Positions 1,067 through 15,396 of a DNA stretch of 15,942 nucleotides are shown piece by piece (the first letter of the stretch is position 1; each line of letters begins with the position of its first letter). Where the stretch lies: NCBI RefSeq assembly GCF_000275845.1, contig NW_006766948.1, positions 127,095-143,036 of the forward strand, given 5' to 3'. The stretch is from Dichomitus squalens LYAD-421 SS1. Its lineage: Eukaryota; Basidiomycota; Agaricomycetes; Polyporales; Polyporaceae. Below the pieces are notes generated by a model. It was not told the origin of the DNA and did no database searches. It was given only the letters and a program-made list of their open reading frames with translations. The translations under genes and the position numbers were made by a program.

Positions 1067-1748
1067 CTACGCTGCGATCGCGTGCCAGAGCTGCCGCGGA
1101 ATGAGCTGGTCCTGACACGGCTCAGGCTGGAGCCCCACCTGTCGACAAGTGCATACAATACATCAGTACGTGCGTCTCTGAGCCTGGTGGACTCGAAGTC
1201 TTTCATTCGAACACACAGGACATTAACGCACACGCACCTGATCGCCCACAGCGGGGCTGGTGGTCGGGATGGCGAGGCAGTCTATAACGTTGTCGAAGGG
1301 CCGGATGAGGGTGCCGTTCGAGGCGCTCCCAACGAACCAATGCTGCAGCTCGTCGTCCTCGTCGCACTCCTCCAGCGTGACAGGATGAGAGCTCGCGGTG
1401 CCGGTCGCGTTGGTCGCGGTCATGCACAGCGGAGCGTCACGGGGGAGGCTGCCAAACAGCTGGATTTGACCGATCTCATCCGTGCCCGCGGTGAGGACAA
1501 ACGTGGAGAAACCGTCTTCGGGGTACGTCATGACGAGGCTCGATCCGGGGGCCGGCGCGTATCCCGCACCGACGACCAAGCCGTCAGCTGGAATAGGAGG
1601 TGAGTGAGGGGCACGGGACGATAGTGCGAGGAGGTCACTGACCGAAGTCGTCGAAGATGTGCACAGGTACGTTGGGGTCCACTGAGTCTGCGACCGCGGA
1701 GAGCACATCGCCGAGGGCGAAGGCTGCTGCGAAGGCGAAGATTTTCAT
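1067..1748 (-). CDS. Small secreted ricin-B-like (beta-trefoil) lectin, 175 aa
   Basis: Three exons on the minus strand: 1748-1643, 1587-1238 and 1138-1067, with GT...AG introns of 55 and 99 bp; 528 nt gives 175 aa plus stop. Residues 1-20 form a clean signal peptide (MKIFAFAAAFALGDVLSAVA), so the protein should enter the secretory pathway. The body resembles the ricin-B family: paired Cys/QxW signatures are C90...C110 with QHW at 117-119, and C139...C160 with QLW at 168-170. The region from 37 to 89 may be a first trefoil lobe that has lost its QxW. Two N-glycosylation sequons lie at N95 and N126. Family knowledge suggests carbohydrate binding outside the cell; the ligand is not predictable. 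There is no catalytic domain, so nothing suggests a ricin-like toxin. The start is supported by the signal peptide and the TATA box 70-77 bp upstream. Exon joins are inferred by eye. Confidence 0.85.
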
Positions 1749-2706: not shown

Positions 2707-3456
2707 TTCACGATCAAAAACCAATAAACCCCGTCGCCGGTTGACGCAGACACATGCATGTTGCATCCAGAAGCGGGAATCGTTCCTCTTCCTCCACTCG
2801 AGGTTCGCCGGTCACAGTCTGGGACAGGGCCCGACGAGGAGCTGCAGGAGTCGGCGATGCTTGATCCGATCATAGTCGACTCCGATGAAATTCGTAATCG
2901 ACTCCATCAGTACTTGTCGATACTGGGTAGAAGTGCGCTATACACAGCGAATGACTCTGACTCCGGGCCTTGGGCTCGACTGGCATATACTCGACGGGTA
3001 CCATCCTTCCCTTAACTCTGGTCTGGCGATCACCTGTAATATCGTACCGTCGCCCATTTTTACTATGGCTTATAAATGTTGAGAAGTCAGCCATCGACAT
3101 CCTCATTTTTCTCATTGGCGGTGTGAGCTGAACGCTCGCAACGGAGGAGTGTTTCTCGATTGACAGGCGCTATTGACCCTCTCTCAGTGGCATATTCCGA
3201 CGACGGCGCTCATAGTACAAGAGCTCAAACGCCGAGCTATTCGCATGCAATTCTAAGGGTTACGTGACATTCGGCATGATTGCTACCAAATCGGTGTATT
3301 CATCTTCTAACATCGATAATGCCTCTATGATCCCATCCATGTCCCTTCGTCCGTTGGAGACTTCCGAGGCTGAGACCTAGGTATGCAGCAGTGTTTCGAT
3401 CCAATGATTTTCTGACTCAGCCATGGCTTTTCCAACCAGTAATCGAAGAGCTAACA
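2707..3456. other. Upstream region of the first HET gene, no gene recognised
   Basis: Short overlapping frames on both strands give no recognisable protein. A TATA-like TATAAAT lies at about 3069-3075 but is nearly 390 bp before the HET start. A possible 5'-leader intron runs from 3381 (GTATGC) to 3420 (CTGACTCAG); at 40 bp it would be unusually short, so it is only a suggestion. Confidence 0.35.
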
Positions 3457-5492
3457 ATGTGGCTCCTGCACACCACTCGTTTTGAACTGAAAGAATTCCC
3501 CGACGCGAGCGGGGTCCCTGGAGGCTACGCGATACTGTCTCATACGTGGGGGAACCGCGAGCAAACGTATCAAGATATCCGTGCCATCGCGGAACAATGC
3601 AAGCTGACTGGCGACAACCCCCGCGACAAGACCTCCTCCAAGATCCGTAAGTGCTGTGATATGGCACTGCAGCACGGTTATGAGTGGGCATGGGTCGATT
3701 CGTGTTGCATTAACAAGACCAGCAGCACAGAGCTTTCCGAAGCTATCAACTCCATGTTCAAGTGGTATTGGCAGGCCGAGGTCTGCTTCGCATTCCTCGT
3801 GGACGTGCCTACCGCTAGCATAGACGAGCTGAGCGCGGAGGGATCCCCTTTCCGGAGAAGTCGCTGGCATAAACGAGGGTGGACACTCCAGGAGCTCATC
3901 GCGCCCGCAGTGGTGATCTTCGTCTCCCGAACATGGGAGAGACTCGGAACCAAAGCGGAACTAGCACAGCTCCTAGAAGAGATCACTCATGTCCCCCAGA
4001 GCATCCTCACTCGGCAGCGCTACTACTACCAGGCGAGCGTAGCGGATCGCATGGTGTGGGCGTCGAATCGCGTCACCACCAGGGTAGAGGACCAGGGCTA
4101 TTGCCTGATGGGCCTCTTCAATGTCCGGATGACGATCATCTACGGAGAAGGATCACACGCATTCCAGCGGCTCCAGCAGAAAATCATGAAGCACGGCTTC
4201 GACATGAGTCTTTTTGCCTGGGGGGCTGGCTGGCTTCGGAATGCGCCTCTCAGAGACCTTGGGTTGGAGTTTGCGACGCGTCGCGACATAGAACTGCTCA
4301 ACGACTACTCCTACCTTCTCGCTCCATCGCCGGCCAGCTTCATACACGGGTTCGAGTTCACGCCTCTACATCCCCACCCAAAGCAGATTTACCCACCTCC
4401 CGTGAGTATCATTCTTGTAACCGTTGCACGATGCTGTGTTCACAAGAACAACAGGTCCTCAAAGAATGGCAAAAAGCGCGCGCGCGGCCCTTCCATGGTG
4501 TCGAGATACCCACCGCGGCCGTGGAAAACTATGGAATCGTGTGTCGATTTCCAGTCTTCGAGGCGGGTGGTATCGTAGTGGCTGTTCTGCTCTGCGAGAA
4601 CAAATCGCGTGAACACATGGGACTCCTTTTGCAGCGGGATCCATTGAGCTATGATCCAAAGCGACCCCTTCATTACACCAGCGCCGTCTTCAATGACACT
4701 AGCACTCCAGACCAACAATTTCCACTAGCGTACCGCCTCGTTTCTCTAGGAGACGACCTCTACAATCTCCGTTTCAACGGGAAACGGGTGAAGCCGCGCT
4801 GGCGCACTCTCTATGTACAACCCCGACCTGAGGCGCTGTACTCTCCGGATACCTCCATTGCGAGACTGCGACTCAACTGCGCTGTCCAACCCGCTTTTCG
4901 CATACCCCATTGGCTCATCGCTAACTTCGATATGCTGGGCTTCCTGTTGACGCCTGAGACCCCCGAAGACGAGCTTCCTCTTCGACTTCAACTCAGCGGG
5001 ACATTGTATGGCGAGTTCATTCATCTTGATCTCGGGATATGTCACACTGGCGATCACTGGGCTAAGGTCCTCATCCACCACGACGACGATACCTCAAATT
5101 GGAATACGCCTCATCACATCCATGACTGCACCGAACACCACGTTTCATCGTGGTCCGAAGGGAAGAAGCTGTTCGGTGATACAGCGACCCGTGGCGTGGA
5201 GCTTGCCTTCTCCACTTGCACTCTGGCATCCGCGACGAACCCAAGAACTCTTGCCGCTCGTATAGAGCTCAAGGGCTCCGTATACGCTCATATCGAGCAG
5301 CAAGCCAGACTACTACGACATGGTCCGGAACTCCCCCAGAGCATTCGAACTGTTCCTTCCATCGCTCCTGCGTCAGTAGCGTCCCAAGCATCTGCCTCTC
5401 TGAGGCCCTCATGGGCAACATTCATCGTGTCCGTAGAGCACGTTGTATCTTGGCCTATGCGCTTCGTCCGCCGCCCTTCTGGTAGCATCTAA
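3457..5492 (+). CDS. HET-domain (heterokaryon-incompatibility type) protein with DUF8212-like region, 660 aa
   Basis: Two exons, 3457-4401 and 4455-5492, joined by a 53-bp phase-0 intron (GTGAGT...ACAG); the product is 660 aa plus stop. The start is the ATG giving MWLLHTTRFELKEF, the usual N-terminus of this family; the frame is open further upstream but has no better ATG. HET-domain blocks are GGYAILSHTWGN (22-33), the central W-V-D-S-C-C-I-N block (79-86) and RGWTLQELIAP (140-150). Residues about 195-255 (RMVWASNRVTTRVEDQGYCLMGLF, positions 198-221) match the DUF8212-type region that follows HET in basidiomycete proteins. The C-terminal half contains CRFPV and RIPHWLI-like blocks also seen in related fungal proteins. 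HET domains are associated with non-self recognition and regulated cell death; the specific role of this paralogue is unknown. It is intact and convergent with the second HET gene at 10048-12099. Confidence 0.93.
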
Positions 5493-7402: not shown

Positions 7403-7984
7403 TTCAATGTGGTCGCTTGACCCTAACCGGCGTTTTGCAACGCCATCTGTCTTGCTTCAAGGTCAAGAATAGACGAAGAAACCTTCCTGCAGACATTGAT
7501 TGTTATCGTCCTCGCGGTCGGATTCTTCGGACAAGGTGAGCACTTTGAGCTCGCCACGCTTCTCTTTGTGTATATGGTTCTCACGTATGTCGACTGCGAA
7601 GCATGCCACGCCTACACGTGGTGGCCCATGCCGGTACACATGACGTGCATACCGCACTCATTCAACTCGACCGCTGTGTCAAGTGTGATGCTCCGCTAGG
7701 TACCGCAGGACTTCTTTGACTTCGATCTAGGTTCATGTTCGCACTACCGCAGCACACCCTCTGCAATGGGCTCATCGAACAGCAGGCTCGTTGGCTGAGC
7801 TGCAGAATTCCATGAACGCTAGCTGGCTCCCCGGACTCGCTCTGCGGCGAACCTTATCCGGTCCCCAATTATACGCTCGACGCGGGTCCTGACTCTAGCT
7901 TCTCTTCCCCACCACCCATCCCGCTGAGCCGTACTCGATTGCTGCTATTCTCTAGCCTCCTCCGTATCTTCTTGCAGTATCGCC
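7403..7984. other. Upstream region of the 4E/PABP-binding gene
   Basis: A short hydrophobic frame (about 7493-7590, LIVIVLAVGFFGQ...) has some coding flavour but no recognisable domain, and it leads only to a 67-codon ORF. The last ~90 bases before the ATG at 7985 are pyrimidine-rich (CTTCTCTTCCCCACCACCC and similar), typical of a fungal core promoter or leader. A CTTGCAG just before the ATG could be the acceptor of a leader intron. Confidence 0.35.
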
Positions 7985-9591
7985 ATGTCTGTGACTTCAC
8001 AAGCGAATGGGCGCGACATCCCTGGGTTCGGTCGAAAAGGGCGGGTCTGGGGGACGTCTGGAGGAGTCGGATTGTCTCTTGCCACCGATGAGCGGTCCAA
8101 ACCGCCACCATTTTGGGGTATGTGCATCCGGTTAGGCACCCTTCCTGAGGATCATCGCCGACGCTTCGTTGCACAGCGCCTCCTCTTCCCGGAATGCGTT
8201 CCTCCTCCGGAACAAGCGTTAACACGTCGATCTCTCCAACATCCACGACGACGCCCGCCGGTACTCGCCCGCTGAACTATGTGCGTAAAGCTCTCGGAAG
8301 GCAGTCCTCCGGGGAACAGGAGCCTACGAAGCCCTACGTAAAGCAGAGGTACACCACGCAAAGCACGCCCAGTTCGCCAGCTCTCCAGCAACCTCCCCAT
8401 TGGTACCCGTCACCCGTGCAGGGGCGCGGTGCGGCTTCCTTCATTCCTCCTGGGAAGCATCATGATGCCGCACACCTCGATGCGCGGGCGGCGGAGTTCG
8501 TCCCTGGACGAGGTGCTACTGCTCCTGCCCCAGCCGCGGCGCTCCTTCCAGTGAACGATATCGACCTGAACGAATGCGCCAGAACTGAACCTGGGACAGC
8601 CATGTCTTCGTCGCGCGTCTCGGTGCGTGGCTCGCGCTCCCCGTCGCTCTCGCCTTCGACGGACGAGGGCAAGAGCGCGGAGAGAGAAAGGGAGGAGGCC
8701 GAGAGGCAGTGGCACCTGCAGGCGGTGCCAGGAGACGAGGACAATGGGTGGGGGGTCTCACAACCGACTGCGATGCACAACTCGGAGAGCTTGGGCGACG
8801 CTGGCGAGAGTGTTGAAGCGAAGCCACCAGGGGCCGACGCCACGTCCGTTGAACGACCTGCGCTTTGTTCCGAACAGAGCCCGCAGCCGTCATGTTCGCT
8901 CTTGTCGCCCTCTGCAACCACGCCTCAGGATGTGGTGGTAGGAGCTGCACCGCCGGGGTTCGGTGTATTGATCCATCGCGCACGAATGATAAGGGACGAC
9001 GATCGCGTGCCATATCCCAAGGACGTCATCCCTCCCAACGTCCGGCCGGCAAATACCCGCTATGCTCGAGAGTTCCTCCTGCAATTTGAAAAGGTGTGCA
9101 CCGGCAAGCCGCCTACCATACCTACAATCGATCCCTTCTGGCATCTCATCCTAGTACGGCACGAACAACACGTACAACGTCAAGAGCGCGTTCCTCGTGC
9201 CCGCACGGTGCACGTAGGTGTTCAAACGGAGGAGATCGGTACTCACTGCAAAGACGCGGACTCCCGCGATCCGGAGGATACTAGCGGCGCGGTTGGTTGC
9301 GACCCCGATGTCGCTAGCCAAGCAGGCACCAACAGCGACGCGACGACACAGACTGCGGACGCAGCCCGTGATCTTCCCGTGAAGAATGCTGTCCGATCTG
9401 TAGACGGTGACGTCTTTGGCAAGCCAGCCTATCGTGTAACACCACGCATGGATGAACTCGACCCTTTCGACTACGAGATGCAGGATGCAAGGCGCGAGCT
9501 ACTGGAAGCACAAGTCGCACGTCTGGAGGCGGAGATGAAGATTATGCACCTTGAGCTTTGCAGACTTCGTCGCGCTGTCGGAATATCGTGA
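7985..9591 (+). CDS. Putative eIF4E- and PABP-binding adaptor, eIF4G-like without MIF4G/MA3, 515 aa
   Basis: Two exons, 7985-8117 and 8177-9591, joined by a 59-bp intron (GTATGT...GCACAG); phases agree and the product is 515 aa plus stop. Residues 340-346, YAREFLL, are a canonical Y-x4-L-phi eIF4E-binding motif inside a longer block that resembles the eIF4E-binding domain of fungal eIF4G: DDDRVPYP (318-325), then REFLLQFEKVCTGKP (342-356). Residues 145-154, LDARAAEFVP, fit the PAM2 consensus (L-N-x-x-A-x-x-F-x-P, with D for N) that binds the MLLE domain of poly(A)-binding protein. Residues 211-223 are highly charged, and about 475-510 form a heptad-like amphipathic helix rich in Leu, Glu and Arg, likely a coiled coil. 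The rest is low-complexity and disordered-looking. Fungal eIF4G normally exceeds 1000 residues and carries MIF4G, the eIF4A-binding platform; here the stop comes about 160 residues after the 4E site. The role as a cytoplasmic translational regulator is inferred. A truncated eIF4G duplicate is the main alternative. Confidence 0.85.
8476..8505 (+). other. PAM2-like motif (PABP MLLE-binding)
   Basis: Encodes LDARAAEFVP, residues 145-154 of the adaptor. Leu, Ala, Phe and Pro fall at the PAM2 anchor positions; Asp replaces the common Asn. It lies in a disordered-looking, Ala/Gly/Pro-rich context, as PAM2 motifs normally do. Confidence 0.6.
8995..9111 (+). other. eIF4G-type eIF4E-binding segment
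   Basis: Encodes residues 318-356 of the adaptor. YAREFLL at 9061-9081 supplies the Y-x4-L-phi core. The preceding RVPYP and the following LLQFEKVC...KP extend the likeness to the eIF4G family beyond the short core motif, which alone would be weak evidence. Confidence 0.75.
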
Positions 9592-10047: not shown

Positions 10048-12099
10048 TTATCCCAGGCTTTCAAATAGCCGCGACCCTTGGAGCCGCGCGGGCTGTGAGC
10101 GAAGGAACTCTTTGTATGCTTCCTGTCTGAAAGGTGTATCAGAACACATTAGAACTCTTGTGCGACGGATAGACCTCACCGCTTCTGATAAGCGATCGGG
10201 TCAATAGGCTCTGTCCATTCGCTAAATAGAAGCGTGTCTGCAGGATAGATCGGCGAGTCATGGTAGGGGGTGAACGACAGATTGTAGCCTTCCGCAGGAG
10301 ACCATACATACGATCCTAGAGACGGGTGAGCAAGTAGCACGCTCTAAAATTCTAATGGGTCGTACCATCCTGTCCCGCAGGCCATGAACAAATATGGTCC
10401 CAGTCACATATGTGCTCGAGGTAGTTGTCTGGGGAAGGCGCAGTGCCGAGACGGTGAAAGTGCAAGCTGACGAAATGGCGACGAGACGTCTGCGAAGGAA
10501 TTCGCTGTTCCCGAGTGCATTGACCCAGAACAATGTATACATTACGGCGTTGATATGGATTTGACAACAGTAGCACCGCGTTGAGAGGAGCTTGAGGTGG
10601 CGTATAGACGACTCCCCAACGTTCGACTACTTCGCTATCCATCCGGGGAAGGCCTTCTGGATGGCCTCCCATGGGAAACGAAAGCGAGCATCGGAGTGGT
10701 ACTCCGCATCGATCGGGATCGAGGGGGATGTAGGCTTCGGAGTGGTGTGCCAAAGGGCGATGTAGATCTCTTGCCACTCTAGCTTGTGCGCCTCGAGCTG
10801 ATTCTTGTGCAGATGGAAAGCAACCACACGAGGGTGGAAGAAGCCAGTGTGATAGAGAGGCCGTGACTTGTCTTGGGCATCTGGACAGGGAGTCAGGGGA
10901 AGCCACACGGGCACAGGCCAACTGTCGTCAGTTGACAACACGCCATTCCACCATTGACAGCCAAGGCTAGCTAGAAGGCAATCCCCAGTCCTGAAGCATG
11001 CGATGCGAGCAAGACAACTATATGGAGTGATCGTGAAGGTGGGGATACTGCGGATGTTAGGGTCAGACTTGGGATCTGTTGAGCAGCACTGGGTCTGAAA
11101 GTACCGCCAGACACGAGACCGTAAGCGACAGTATTTGGCGACATGTGTGGATGATCGATGACATACCTCCCCAGCGTGAGTTACCTCCGAAATGTTCTGA
11201 TTGAATATCATGGAACCGCTGAATCCCGGGCTGGAAATATCGGGTGTAGGCGTAAGGAGATAGCTTTGGGGGTGGATATGCTTTGAGTTGTGATTATCGA
11301 GCGACTTCCATCGTTCAGGCGCTGGGTAATCTGGTTCCACAGACGCGCCCCATGCGAACAAAGATGGGTCAATCGACTGCTTCATAATCTCCTCTTGCAG
11401 CCGCTGAAATGCACGCTCTCCTTCCCCGTAGACTGGGTTCATGTTGATGGAGAACATTCCAAGGAGAGAATAGGCACGGTCCTCCACCCGCGTTGTCCTG
11501 CGCCCGAAGGCCCAAGACATACGCTGAGCGACGCTAAGAGCCTGCACCTCCTTCTCTCTCAAGAGCGCCTCGACAGGAATGTGCGTGATACGAGTTAGAA
11601 GTTGTGCGTTATCGACCCTTGTGCCAAGCCTTGTCCAATCTGCGAAGAGGAATATGAGGAAAGGGGGGGCGATAAGCTCCTGCAGCGTCCAGCCGCGGGT
11701 GTGCCAGCTGCTGCGCCTGAAGTCCATGTCTGCACCCATGTCGGTGGGCGTACTAGGGACGTCCGCCAGATAGGCGTAGCAGACGTCCGCAAGGGTGTAG
11801 TAGTGATACATGGAATTGATTGCCTCTGACAGCTCCGCCGAGCTGCTCTTGTCGATGCAGCATGTGTCGTTCCAGATCCACCGGTGGCCGTCGCGCTGCG
11901 CGACAATGCAGCTTGTGCGGACGTTCTCAGAAGAGTAGTCCCGCGGGTTCTGCCAGAACCAGGAACATGTGCTGCGCAGCTTCTGGGTGTCCTGGAACGT
12001 CTGCTCCTTTACGCCCCATACATGCGAGAGGATGGCGTAACCACCAGGGATGATCTCGGGGTGAGTGAAGTAGTGGAGCTCAGCGCTCAAAACCCACAT
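10048..12099 (-). CDS. Second HET-domain/DUF8212-type protein, frame-shifted in exon 2
   Basis: Minus strand exons: 12099-11167, 11094-10366, 10315-10180 and 10126-10048, with introns of 72, 50 and 53 bp. Intron 1 (GTATGT...TTTCAG) is in frame and stop-free, so a naive ORF reads through it. HET blocks are GGYAILSHVWGV (19-30), W-N-D-T-C-C-I-D (76-83) and RGWTLQELIAP (135-145), followed by RMSWAFGRRTTRVEDRAYSL (193-212). In exon 2 the original frame ends at TAG 10627, right after FPWEAIQKAFPGWIAK. A coherent continuation (residues EVVERWGVVYTPPQAPL and onward) lies in the next frame and splices cleanly through two more exons to TAA at 10050-10048. Total exon length is one base short of a multiple of three, which points to a single-base loss, perhaps in the G-run at 10645-10648. 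It is either a recent pseudogene, a truncated protein of 466 aa, or an assembly error. It is paralogous to the gene at 3457-5492 and convergent with it. Confidence 0.87.
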
Positions 12100-13107
12100 G
12101 AGGTCTCAAGATCTCAAGGGCCGTGGACGTGAGCGACTAGAACAAGAGGTACTACACGGTGACACGGTGACATACCGTACGTGTGTCAGGATATGCACGA
12201 GATGTTTCAGTGAGAGCGTTGCCTGGCAGAAGATGACGGAGCAGTCGAGGTGCTCCACAGAACACCGTTGGCAGCAAGTTGTGGAAGAGATGCGGCGTCA
12301 ATCTAGACTCTGACACTTGTATTCTGCGATGGGCGTTCTGATATGCCAATGTTGCGCCCAGATCATGCCTGACGACACTCCGCTCGGAGATGTAGGCAGC
12401 GAACCTCGTCTCCTCATTAGCATGACACAGTCGCTAAAGCAGAGAGCCTTGTGATTATATGACATTGGCCACTCCCTACTCTAGCAAGTCTTGCCATGTA
12501 CGTGTGGCACATTGATAGCCAGTGTGCAAAGCACAGATAATACGAGGCTTAGCCCAGATTCAATACACACTGGATAGCCACATATAGGATACTCGTCTTT
12601 CTAGTCATGTCCCTTAGTCCTTAGCTATCTCGTGGTAAGTTTGTGTACATTTGGCTATGTGACTCGCATCTTGTACAAGCCTAGGGAGACCCAGCGGTCG
12701 TGATGGACATCGCCAGATTGGAATCGCCCGTGGTTGGGGCAGTGTAGCGTACTGCTTCATCCTCAGTCTTCGCCGAAGTCAACAGGAGGGAAGAACAACA
12801 AGCGACCAAGAGTTGCGATCATTAGGCGATCGGGAACGGTTTTTGTCCAGAGCAAGCCAGAGGTTCTCAGCGATGCCCGCATTCCCTCCAGCAAAGTCGC
12901 CTTGCTTCCTCGCATGTGGTTTCCCTGTACTGTATGGCGTTGGAGGCGCTGAATCAACTACAAGACTAGTATGATATGAAGTGTTGCTACACAGGAGCTG
13001 GCGCAAGCACCGGGCCGCTTCGTCTACGCTCGTTGTCTGTTGGGCTGATCCTCGTCCGACACTCGGCGGAGCCCGCTGCTGTCCCTTCCTTTACAACGTG
13101 CCATCCC
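12100..13107. other. Intergenic region between HET gene and transporter, no gene recognised
   Basis: This holds the upstream region of the second HET gene (left) and the 3' flank of the transporter (right). Open frames are short and give no known domain. Minor structure: CCAGTGTG (12519-12526) and CACACTGG (12566-12573) form an inverted pair, and GATAGCCA occurs directly at 12514-12521 and 12573-12580. Confidence 0.45.
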
Positions 13108-15396
13108 CTATTCGACGCCATCACGTACGGACCTGTCCGCCCATCGCTGAACGAGGGCACGTAGGCCGAGATCAACTTCGATCTACAACGGTCGTTCAGC
13201 ACCGTCCATGGATGGAGGGATAGATCGTACCTGGTGCTTGATCGCAACGTCCTCCCGCCCTGCACTCGACCCAAATACGGCATCGATCTCCTCAAGCGAG
13301 ATGTTCGCCGTCTCGGGCACGCAGTACGTCGACCACACGTACCCCGCGAAGCACGCCGTCGCGAACACGACGAACGTCCCGCTCGCGGAGCGCTCCATGA
13401 ACACTGGCGTCAGCAACCCTATCAAGACTGCATCCCATCACCCATCGTCAGTCCGTGAGAAGTGGTACGAAGACGGCGAGAGGGACCCACAGTTGTTAAG
13501 CCAATTCGACGCGGTCGCGAGCGCGACACCCTTGCTGCGTGCGGAGAGCGGGAACACCTCGCTGGGCAGGATCCAGCCGATCGGCCCGTAACTAACACCG
13601 TACGCGGCCGTGAACGCGTACACGCAACCGACGGAGACCCAGGCCGCGAGCGGGTGCGCGGGCCATACAGCGCTGTAGCGGTACACGAGGAGCGCGATGA
13701 GCAAGTGCGAGAGCGACATCGCCGCGCTACCCCAGCGGAGGAGCGGCCGCCGACCTGCGACGATGTGGCACGGTGAATACCAGACACACCAGTGAGCGAA
13801 CAGGACACACACCGAGGCGGTCGATAAACACGATAGCAGGGAAGACCGCTATGAACTGCACCACACCGATTCCACCAGCGGACATGAGCGTCACTGCATC
13901 TCCTTGTAAGCCGAGGGAATGCATCAGCGTGGGGCCGTAGTATAGTAGCGCGTTGATCCCGCTCCACTCTACATGTATAGGGTGGATTCCGAATTCAGTA
14001 TGCGAAGGGCACAAAGTACGAGACGCACGCTGGAAGGTCATCATCACCACGCCGATGAGCGTCCGTCGCAGTAGCTTTGGCCCAAACAGACGTTTCCAAG
14101 AATGGATTTCAACACTGAGTGACCCAGTCTTTGCACCTTGTGCGCCATGGCTGCGTGATGTTTGCTCTATGAGCGCTGCCTCGACCTGCATTTCGAGCAA
14201 CTCGATCTGTCTCATCCGTAAGCAGCGACCAAAACATGTAACAAGTCGGCGTACCTGTAGCAAAGGGTCGCTGGCGCTCTCGGCGAGGGAGCGTAGACGG
14301 AGCCTCGCAAGAGAAGCGAGCGCTTCCTCTACTCGTCCCTTCGCAACCAGAAGGCGAGGTGACGGCGGGAGGGCGAGTCCGCCTAAGCCTAAGAGAATGC
14401 CTGGGATGAGTTGGATACCGAGAGGTATTCGCCACGAGGCTGATCCCTCAACTGTGTACCTGCACCTCAGCGACGAAGGTTGCGCATAGATCTGCAGAAG
14501 TCCGTACCGTTGCGAGTGAAGAAGCCAGTCCAGAAGCCTAGGACCGCTCCGAGCACGATAGCAAATTGTTCGAGAGCCATGAGTGACCCCCGCACTTCGG
14601 GAGGGCTGATCTCCGCCATGTACAGTGGGGAGAGCATGCTGCACGGAAGTTGAGCGCATATAGCCCGCCATGATGGCCAAACGTGACATACCTCAGAGCG
14701 CCGACGCCTATACCTCCAATTCCCCGTCCAAGAACCAGATGCTCGGGATTCTGCGCCGCGCATTGCAGAGCGGACCCTATGCAGAATATCGCTGAGACGA
14801 TGGTGAGTATCCGCTTTGCAGCAGGTCTACCTGTGTCACCTACCACTCGCTACGAAAATAGACTGCCTCCGGGAGTATTGGTCGGTCAGGGTTCCGGCAG
14901 CCAACGCTCCAAGGAGGGATCCCAGCTCGAGCGCAGCGGCTAGCTATCAGAGTTATTCGCCATTCCCCTTGGTTCTCCTCGTACTCGCGCGGGACACACG
15001 CACTCATGAGACCAGTATCCCAAGCACTCAAGTGCCACCTTCCGACAAAGTCCTTCATGACGAGCACGTTCGCTATCACTCCTTGGTCGTATCCGAAGGT
15101 AAGGCCTCCGATAGACGCGAATACTGCGCATCCCAGGGCGTAATAGTTGTGCACGAGGCCTGCGATGCCTGTTGGTCCGTACGCATATGTATAGGTGCCA
15201 TCTGGATGTACGTGGAGGACGCCTTCGCGGGGAATGTCTGTGATAGACAGGTCGTCAACTGCCTCTCCTGCTACGGGGATGTATCCATCGCGGTTCCTGT
15301 TACTCTGGGGAGGGAAAAAGGAGCCCTCAACGACAGCTCTCAAGTTCTGGGTTCGAGGTTGGGATCATACTAGACACCTGCGGGAAGACGTACCAT
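13108..15396 (-). CDS. MFS sugar transporter (sugar porter family), 579 aa, 11 exons
   Basis: Minus strand exons: 15396-15394, 15346-15004, 14939-14844, 14791-14692, 14638-14508, 14451-14255, 14206-14029, 13968-13813, 13754-13491, 13427-13231 and 13182-13108; introns are 47-64 bp. Phases agree throughout, giving 1740 nt, 579 aa plus stop. Family signatures in order: GGLTFGYDQGVIANVLVMKD (81-100, TM1); loop 2-3 TDQYSRR (134-140); GIGVGALSMLSPLYMAEISP with E-V-R-G-S-L (about 175-200, the sugar-transport signature); QQWSGINALLYYGP (349-362); DRLGRRP (399-405); PSEVFPLSARSKG (465-477); CVPET...SLEE (525-536). Length and motif order fit a 12-helix plasma-membrane proton-coupled monosaccharide porter; the substrate cannot be read from sequence. 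The first exon, only the ATG codon, is the weakest part of the model; the N-terminus could differ. The sixth intron (48 bp) is in frame and stop-free. Confidence 0.93.

Follow-up and report, generated by a model that had tools for sequence, protein, structure and literature searches.

A divergent eIF4G-like gene of Dichomitus squalens with candidate eIF4E- and PABP-binding sites and no MIF4G scaffold

The eIF4E-binding proteins 4E-BP, 4E-T and Cup carry a Y-x4-L-phi motif and have no MIF4G scaffold. A gene at positions 7985-9591 of a 15,942-nt stretch of Dichomitus squalens LYAD-421 SS1 DNA (hereafter, the window) encodes a 515-aa protein that resembles them in both respects. Because the full-length eIF4G of the same genome holds corresponding motifs in the same order, the most suitable reading of this protein is that of a divergent eIF4G paralogue that corresponds to the N-terminal half and has no MIF4G. 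Its putative 4E region is of the eIF4G type (PF12152) and is joined to a PAM2-like motif, unlike what is found in the eIF4E-binding regulators without MIF4G. Y-x4-L-phi without the scaffold is also the arrangement of p20/Caf20 and Eap1, which are stated to be confined to Saccharomycotina (PMC7139794; this and the other papers cited here are drawn on in part); the Pfam listing of the window protein consists of PF12152 only.

Other described systems share one or another of these characteristics. eIF4G2/DAP5/p97 is likewise a partial member of the eIF4G family with a gene of its own (PMC9977666), but it represents the converse case, as it has no site for the cap-binding protein, whereas the window protein keeps this site and lacks MIF4G. 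The N-terminal piece of eIF4G released by the enterovirus 2A protease has the eIF4E site parted from the C-terminal eIF3-binding part (PMC4848588), but it is a cleavage product of human eIF4G that arises during infection and not the product of a separate gene. A direct link from the cap to PABP through PAM2, such as the one proposed here, is described for Leishmania eIF4E4 (PMC6379680), in which PAM2 is located in eIF4E itself rather than in a putative eIF4E-binding protein. Within the basidiomycetes, Upa1 of Ustilago maydis contains a functional PAM2 for the MLLE domain of Pab1, but this protein is a FYVE-domain endosomal adaptor for which the portion of the source consulted mentions no eIF4E site (PMC4466420). 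Neither PMC4466420 nor PMC9249222 uses the term eIF4G in its main text (0 occurrences), no mention of PAM2 in eIF4G or of an eIF4G paralogue without MIF4G was met in the portions of the literature consulted, and searches confined to a collection of open-licence papers found none that combined eIF4G or 4E-binding proteins with basidiomycetes.

Gene model, candidate binding sites and missing scaffold

A sequence-only reading of this stretch had described a two-exon, frame-consistent gene of 515 aa, and its coordinates proved to be right. The 515-aa product arises from one of the six in-frame GT-AG splices enumerated (range 481-515 aa), and it is identical to P0001, a 'hypothetical protein' of Dichomitus squalens LYAD-421 SS1 (DICSQDRAFT_129861; NCBI/UniRef) whose record contains a precomputed PF12152 assignment and a UniRef name that begins 'Eukaryotic tra'. 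The features of the gene are the following.

7985-8117, + strand: exon 1 (splice enumeration), with the ATG at 7985; codons 1-44 plus a single base of codon 45
8118-8176, + strand: intron of 59 nt, GTATGT...CAG
8177-9591, + strand: exon 2, remainder of the 515-aa protein; the stop codon ends at 9591
Exon 1, + strand: N-terminal box GTSGGVxLSLxTDxRSxxPxFW, residues 20-45, conserved with P0002 (see below)
8476-8505, + strand: residues 145-154, LDARAAEFVP, a PAM2-like motif to which PABP might bind by its MLLE domain
8557-8589, + strand: residues 172-182, NDIDLNECART box, which may correspond to the EVDLERF that follows the PAM2-like motif in full-length eIF4G
8680-8727, + strand: EREREEAERQWHLQAV box (ERQWHL box), residues 213-228, conserved in P0002 and P0003 (see below)
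8971-9111, + strand: PF12152 (eIF_4G1), eIF4E-binding region, residues 310-356 (Pfam scan)
9061-9081, + strand: YAREFLL, candidate eIF4E-binding motif of the canonical Y-x4-L-phi type, residues 340-346
9463-9579, + strand: residues 474-512, C-terminal helix that may form a coiled coil (AlphaFold2, AF2, model)

The Pfam scan of the 515-aa protein gave 30.3 bits for PF12152 against a cut-off of 27, and a whole-genome profile search gave 34.1 bits (E 1.1e-6) at the same gene. The genome searches covered the six frames of a 40.3-Mb assembly of 116 contigs, in which the window lies on contig C66, and they scored the best candidates only, so that their counts are lower bounds. In agreement with the eIF4G-like context that had been read around YAREFLL, this motif lies inside the region that matches PF12152 above the cut-off. 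Because YxxxxL-phi turns up in 18,450 of 200,000 shuffles of the window protein (9%), the 7-mer was rejected as stand-alone evidence, and the putative 4E site was judged by its PF12152 context. When PDB sequences were searched by phmmer, the exon-2 protein had no match at E<=1, and the 63-aa 4E region had six matches at E<=10, five of which were unrelated proteins and the last of which was the eIF4G chain 6fbz_B (E 1.4 over 20 residues); the corresponding region of the full-length eIF4G of this genome matched the same chain at 1.8e-7.

The absence of a MIF4G scaffold, which had also been claimed, is borne out by both types of search. No Pfam family other than PF12152 was listed on the 515-aa protein at E<=10, MIF4G included, and the scan listed no domain that recruits eIF4A, eIF3 or 40S or that binds RNA. 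The whole-genome MIF4G search gave no match in the window and seven elsewhere, one on C53, one at C66:18122-18733, four on C20 and one on C4.

The PAM2 consensus is xxLNxxAxEFxP, in which Leu and Phe carry weight (PMC9249222). LDARAAEFVP keeps the L, A, E, F and P of this consensus but has D in the place of N. The pattern L[ND]xxAxEFxP was found in all three family members and occurred by chance in 5 of 200,000 shuffles of the window protein. What had been reported earlier as a match to PAM2 is therefore called PAM2-like here.

The AF2 model, whose mean predicted local distance difference test (pLDDT) score is 42, shows helices at residues 209-224, 306-313, 338-353, 364-381 and 474-512. The C-terminal helix alone is confident (block pLDDT 88-93 over residues 481-510); helix 209-224, which overlaps the ERQWHL box, has modest confidence, and helix 338-353, over the 4E motif, has low confidence (block pLDDT about 55). 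Concerning the C-terminal coiled coil proposed from the sequence, the helix is confidently predicted and the coiled coil itself is plausible, its best a/d register being 75% hydrophobic. LC8-like QT motifs (VGVQTEE and TTQT) were dropped, as they are not retained in the alignment with P0002.

Relation to full-length eIF4G, relatives and decayed copies

Of the four matches that the genome search with PF12152 gave, two adjoin each other on C53, one is the window gene, and the fourth, which is weak and interrupted by stops, is on C6. The best MIF4G match in the genome (170 bits) is also on C53. When spliced across its first three exons, the C53 gene encodes an eIF4G N-terminal half that leads into MIF4G and in which a PAM2-like motif, LNSNANAFTP (residues 442-451), is followed by the VDL box EVDLERF and by the 4E region. 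The window protein follows the order of these elements, with its PAM2-like motif, a possible counterpart of the VDL box, ARxIxDxxxxxYPxxVxxP and then YxRxFLLQFxxVCxxKP, but the C53 eIF4G runs on into MIF4G, whereas the window protein closes with another helix. A long charged middle region in the C53 eIF4G, and an intron that precedes the codon for the Y of the 4E motif in its gene, have no equivalent in the window protein and gene. The architecture had been regarded as undescribed in basidiomycetes; a 4E region with a PAM2-like motif and without MIF4G does exist here in a gene separate from eIF4G, but the combination of the two sites is not new, since the C53 eIF4G has it. The presence of LNSNANAFTP in a normal eIF4G suggests an MLLE-mediated contact with PABP. 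A PAM2-MLLE contact between eIF4G and PABP may exist in basidiomycetes, and the way in which their mRNA loop is closed thus becomes a question open to experiment.

Homologue searches, which scored the 7997 candidates sharing most words, gave two relatives besides P0001 among the matches listed: P0002, a 563-aa predicted protein of Ganoderma leucocontextum (36% identity, 96% coverage), and P0003, of 310 aa, from a 1819-base ENA contig (44% identity, 50% coverage). Dichomitus and Ganoderma are both Polyporaceae, and the known spread is one family. A homologue of the same architecture was thus found in Ganoderma, as P0002 is of similar length and contains both the PAM2-like site and the 4E motif (YDRDFLL, residues 396-402, at the place of YAREFLL), whereas P0003 has the PAM2-like site only and ends ahead of the 4E site. 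Residues 352-428 of P0002, used as a query, gave eight candidates and did not return P0001, so this search has no bearing on absence elsewhere.

Conservation was compared in blocks that had been picked after the alignment was seen. The highest identities correspond to the ERQWHL box (14/16, 88%, in P0002; 13/16 in P0003) and to the PAM2 block, residues 144-157 (12/14, 86%, to each of the two relatives). The N-terminal box is 62% identical in P0002 (16/26), residues 183-212 are 57% identical to P0002 and 17/30 to P0003, the 4E upstream block 57% and 13/28, and the VDL box 45% and 5/11, respectively. Versus P0002 alone, the 4E core is 58% identical, the C-terminal segment 466-513 is 55% identical (26/47), residues 158-170 share 3/7, and the linkers reach 26%, 25% and 23%. 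This alternation of blocks and linkers is in keeping with selection acting on short interaction motifs within a predicted disordered chain.

P0003 stops with ...QWYVV exactly where the 4E motif would start, and at that point the C53 eIF4G gene has a phase-2 intron whose read-through gives ...FRYVCC. We infer that P0003 retains the eIF4G intron; if so, the duplication would have taken place via DNA, and the intron would have been lost later in Dichomitus.

The window gene has a decayed copy 91 kb away, at about C66:43408-44339 (- strand). This copy is 74.6% identical over 972 bp of DNA and covers window positions 7783-8718, of which about 200 bp precede the ATG. It is interrupted by stops, and the lengths of five of its coding indels are not multiples of three; its likeness to the window gene stops after the ERQWHL box. 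The two copies differ per site by 0.169, 0.183 and 0.225 at codon positions 1, 2 and 3, by 0.203 in the intron and by 0.266 upstream, so that the excess at third positions is weak. A decayed eIF4G fragment is also present on C6 (about 1373700-1374525; 73.7% identical over 893 nt). Therefore, duplicates from this part of eIF4G have decayed at least twice, and the window copy is intact.

Proposed function and competing explanations

We lean towards a 4E-BP-like decoy, that is, an eIF4G-derived protein without MIF4G that would hold eIF4E and PABP and lower translation. The Y-x4-L-phi helix would dock on the dorsal face of eIF4E in competition with full eIF4G, and the PAM2-like motif would hold PABP via its MLLE domain. 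A capped and polyadenylated mRNA could in this way be gripped by its cap and its tail while the scaffold needed to bring in eIF4A is missing, and bound mRNAs would be translated less, or stored. The sequence analysis shows the gene structure, the PF12152 domain, the motifs, a 4E region homologous to that of eIF4G, no MIF4G match and the same architecture in one relative; we infer binding to eIF4E and PABP, dimerisation, the direction of the effect and expression. A repressor is preferred over an activator as the simplest reading of the missing eIF4A, eIF3 and RNA domains. Eap1 is reported to compete with eIF4G for eIF4E (PMC7139794). The broader proposal that polypores evolved a dedicated decoy, by duplicating eIF4G, losing the scaffold, keeping the docking motifs and gaining the C-terminal helix, and so form closed silent messenger ribonucleoprotein particles, is held more tentatively. 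If this broader reading is true, there would be a fungal 4E-BP class beyond yeasts that descends from eIF4G itself, and scaffold loss would be a further route to a 4E-BP-like protein, in Polyporaceae, versus the Saccharomycotina-confined p20 and Eap1. The window protein would also be a way to ask whether a cap and a tail held together without eIF4A activate or silence an mRNA.

Several observations weigh against this reading. When the PAM2-to-VDL block is aligned to eIF4G, it scores above shuffles for one of the three relatives only (P0002, where 11 of 2000 shuffles reached the score, versus 944 for P0001 and 842 for P0003), and the hidden Markov model stretch over this block scores -3.4. Homology to eIF4G is not clear for residues 1-139, whose score was reached by 1704 of 2000 shuffles, or for residues 372-515, with 67 of 2000. 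The PAM2-like site departs from the consensus (PMC9249222) by D for N; the contrast between blocks and linkers is weaker versus P0003 (linkers 39/90 and 23/74; 4E upstream block 13/28), just two homologues are at hand, and the sister copy is decayed. The G+C content at third codon positions (GC3) of the window gene is 0.61, whereas exons of eIF4G and PABP have 0.69-0.75 and two neighbouring HET frames 0.66-0.67, which suggests low expression or weak constraint. In addition, a review states that p20 and Eap1 do not inhibit cap-dependent translation and that they can promote the translation of some mRNAs (PMC7139794), and ribosomes are reported to recycle independently of eIF4A on looped mRNAs (PMC7084953), so a loop without eIF4A is not necessarily silent.

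These last two points also speak for a selective adaptor that would bind an eIF4E, perhaps the divergent one on C6, together with PABP, and promote or localise the translation of certain mRNAs, either because the conserved boxes or the C-terminal helix recruit a further factor or because the closed loop favours ribosome recycling. The genome has three eIF4E loci, and the window protein has extra candidate interaction sites in its conserved N-terminal box, ERQWHL box and C-terminal segment. However, these boxes have no known partner and the Pfam scan listed no eIF4A-, eIF3- or RNA-binding domain, and we consider such an adaptor rather unlikely; the role of alternative initiation adaptor that had been offered as one option found no positive support, as the scan listed nothing that would recruit eIF4A, eIF3 or 40S.

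The gene could also be an eIF4G-derived duplicate on its way out, under weak constraint and with little function, as would be consistent with the decay of its sister copy and of the C6 fragment, the low GC3, the identity of just 36% to Ganoderma and third positions that differ little more than first and second ones. The 515-codon open frame of Dichomitus, the 563-aa prediction in Ganoderma, the far better conservation of blocks than of linkers and the intactness of the window gene beside a decayed sister make this improbable. Finally, a mis-assembly or mis-annotation, in which the only eIF4G of the genome would lie here with its MIF4G missed, was rejected and has a negligible probability, because a separate full eIF4G is encoded on another contig, C53; the window contains no Ns and no MIF4G match, the Ganoderma homologue is of similar length, and no supporting points were found. 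Most bases in the stretches adjoining the window are N (8095 of 9001 in one and 5291 of 7964 in the other).

Candidate partners and neighbouring genes

Basidiomycota carry one to five eIF4E per species (PMC11791286). The three eIF4E loci of the genome search lie on C1 (...SVEEFW), C5 (...VESFW) and C6 (...TVESFC), and the dorsal Trp is retained in two of the three. We take this Trp to be the residue against which Y-x4-L-phi ligands pack. The C6 locus (C6:190773-191195) is an eIF4E family member with Cys at the expected dorsal Trp (TVESFC), in a 419-aa open frame. A single MLLE match at E<=0.1 was found in the genome, in a PABP-like frame with KITGMLLE.

Within the window, positions 1223-1744 (- strand) give a weak ricin-type lectin-like match under the Pfam cut-off (16.7 versus 29 bits), and positions 13438-15364 (- strand) hold a fragmented sugar transporter, in which two PF00083 matches exceed the cut-off and another one falls short of it (16.6 versus 22.3 bits). 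HET-domain frames lie on both sides of the gene, at 3331-4578 (+ strand; 51.9 bits) and 10627-12105 (- strand; 49.1 bits).
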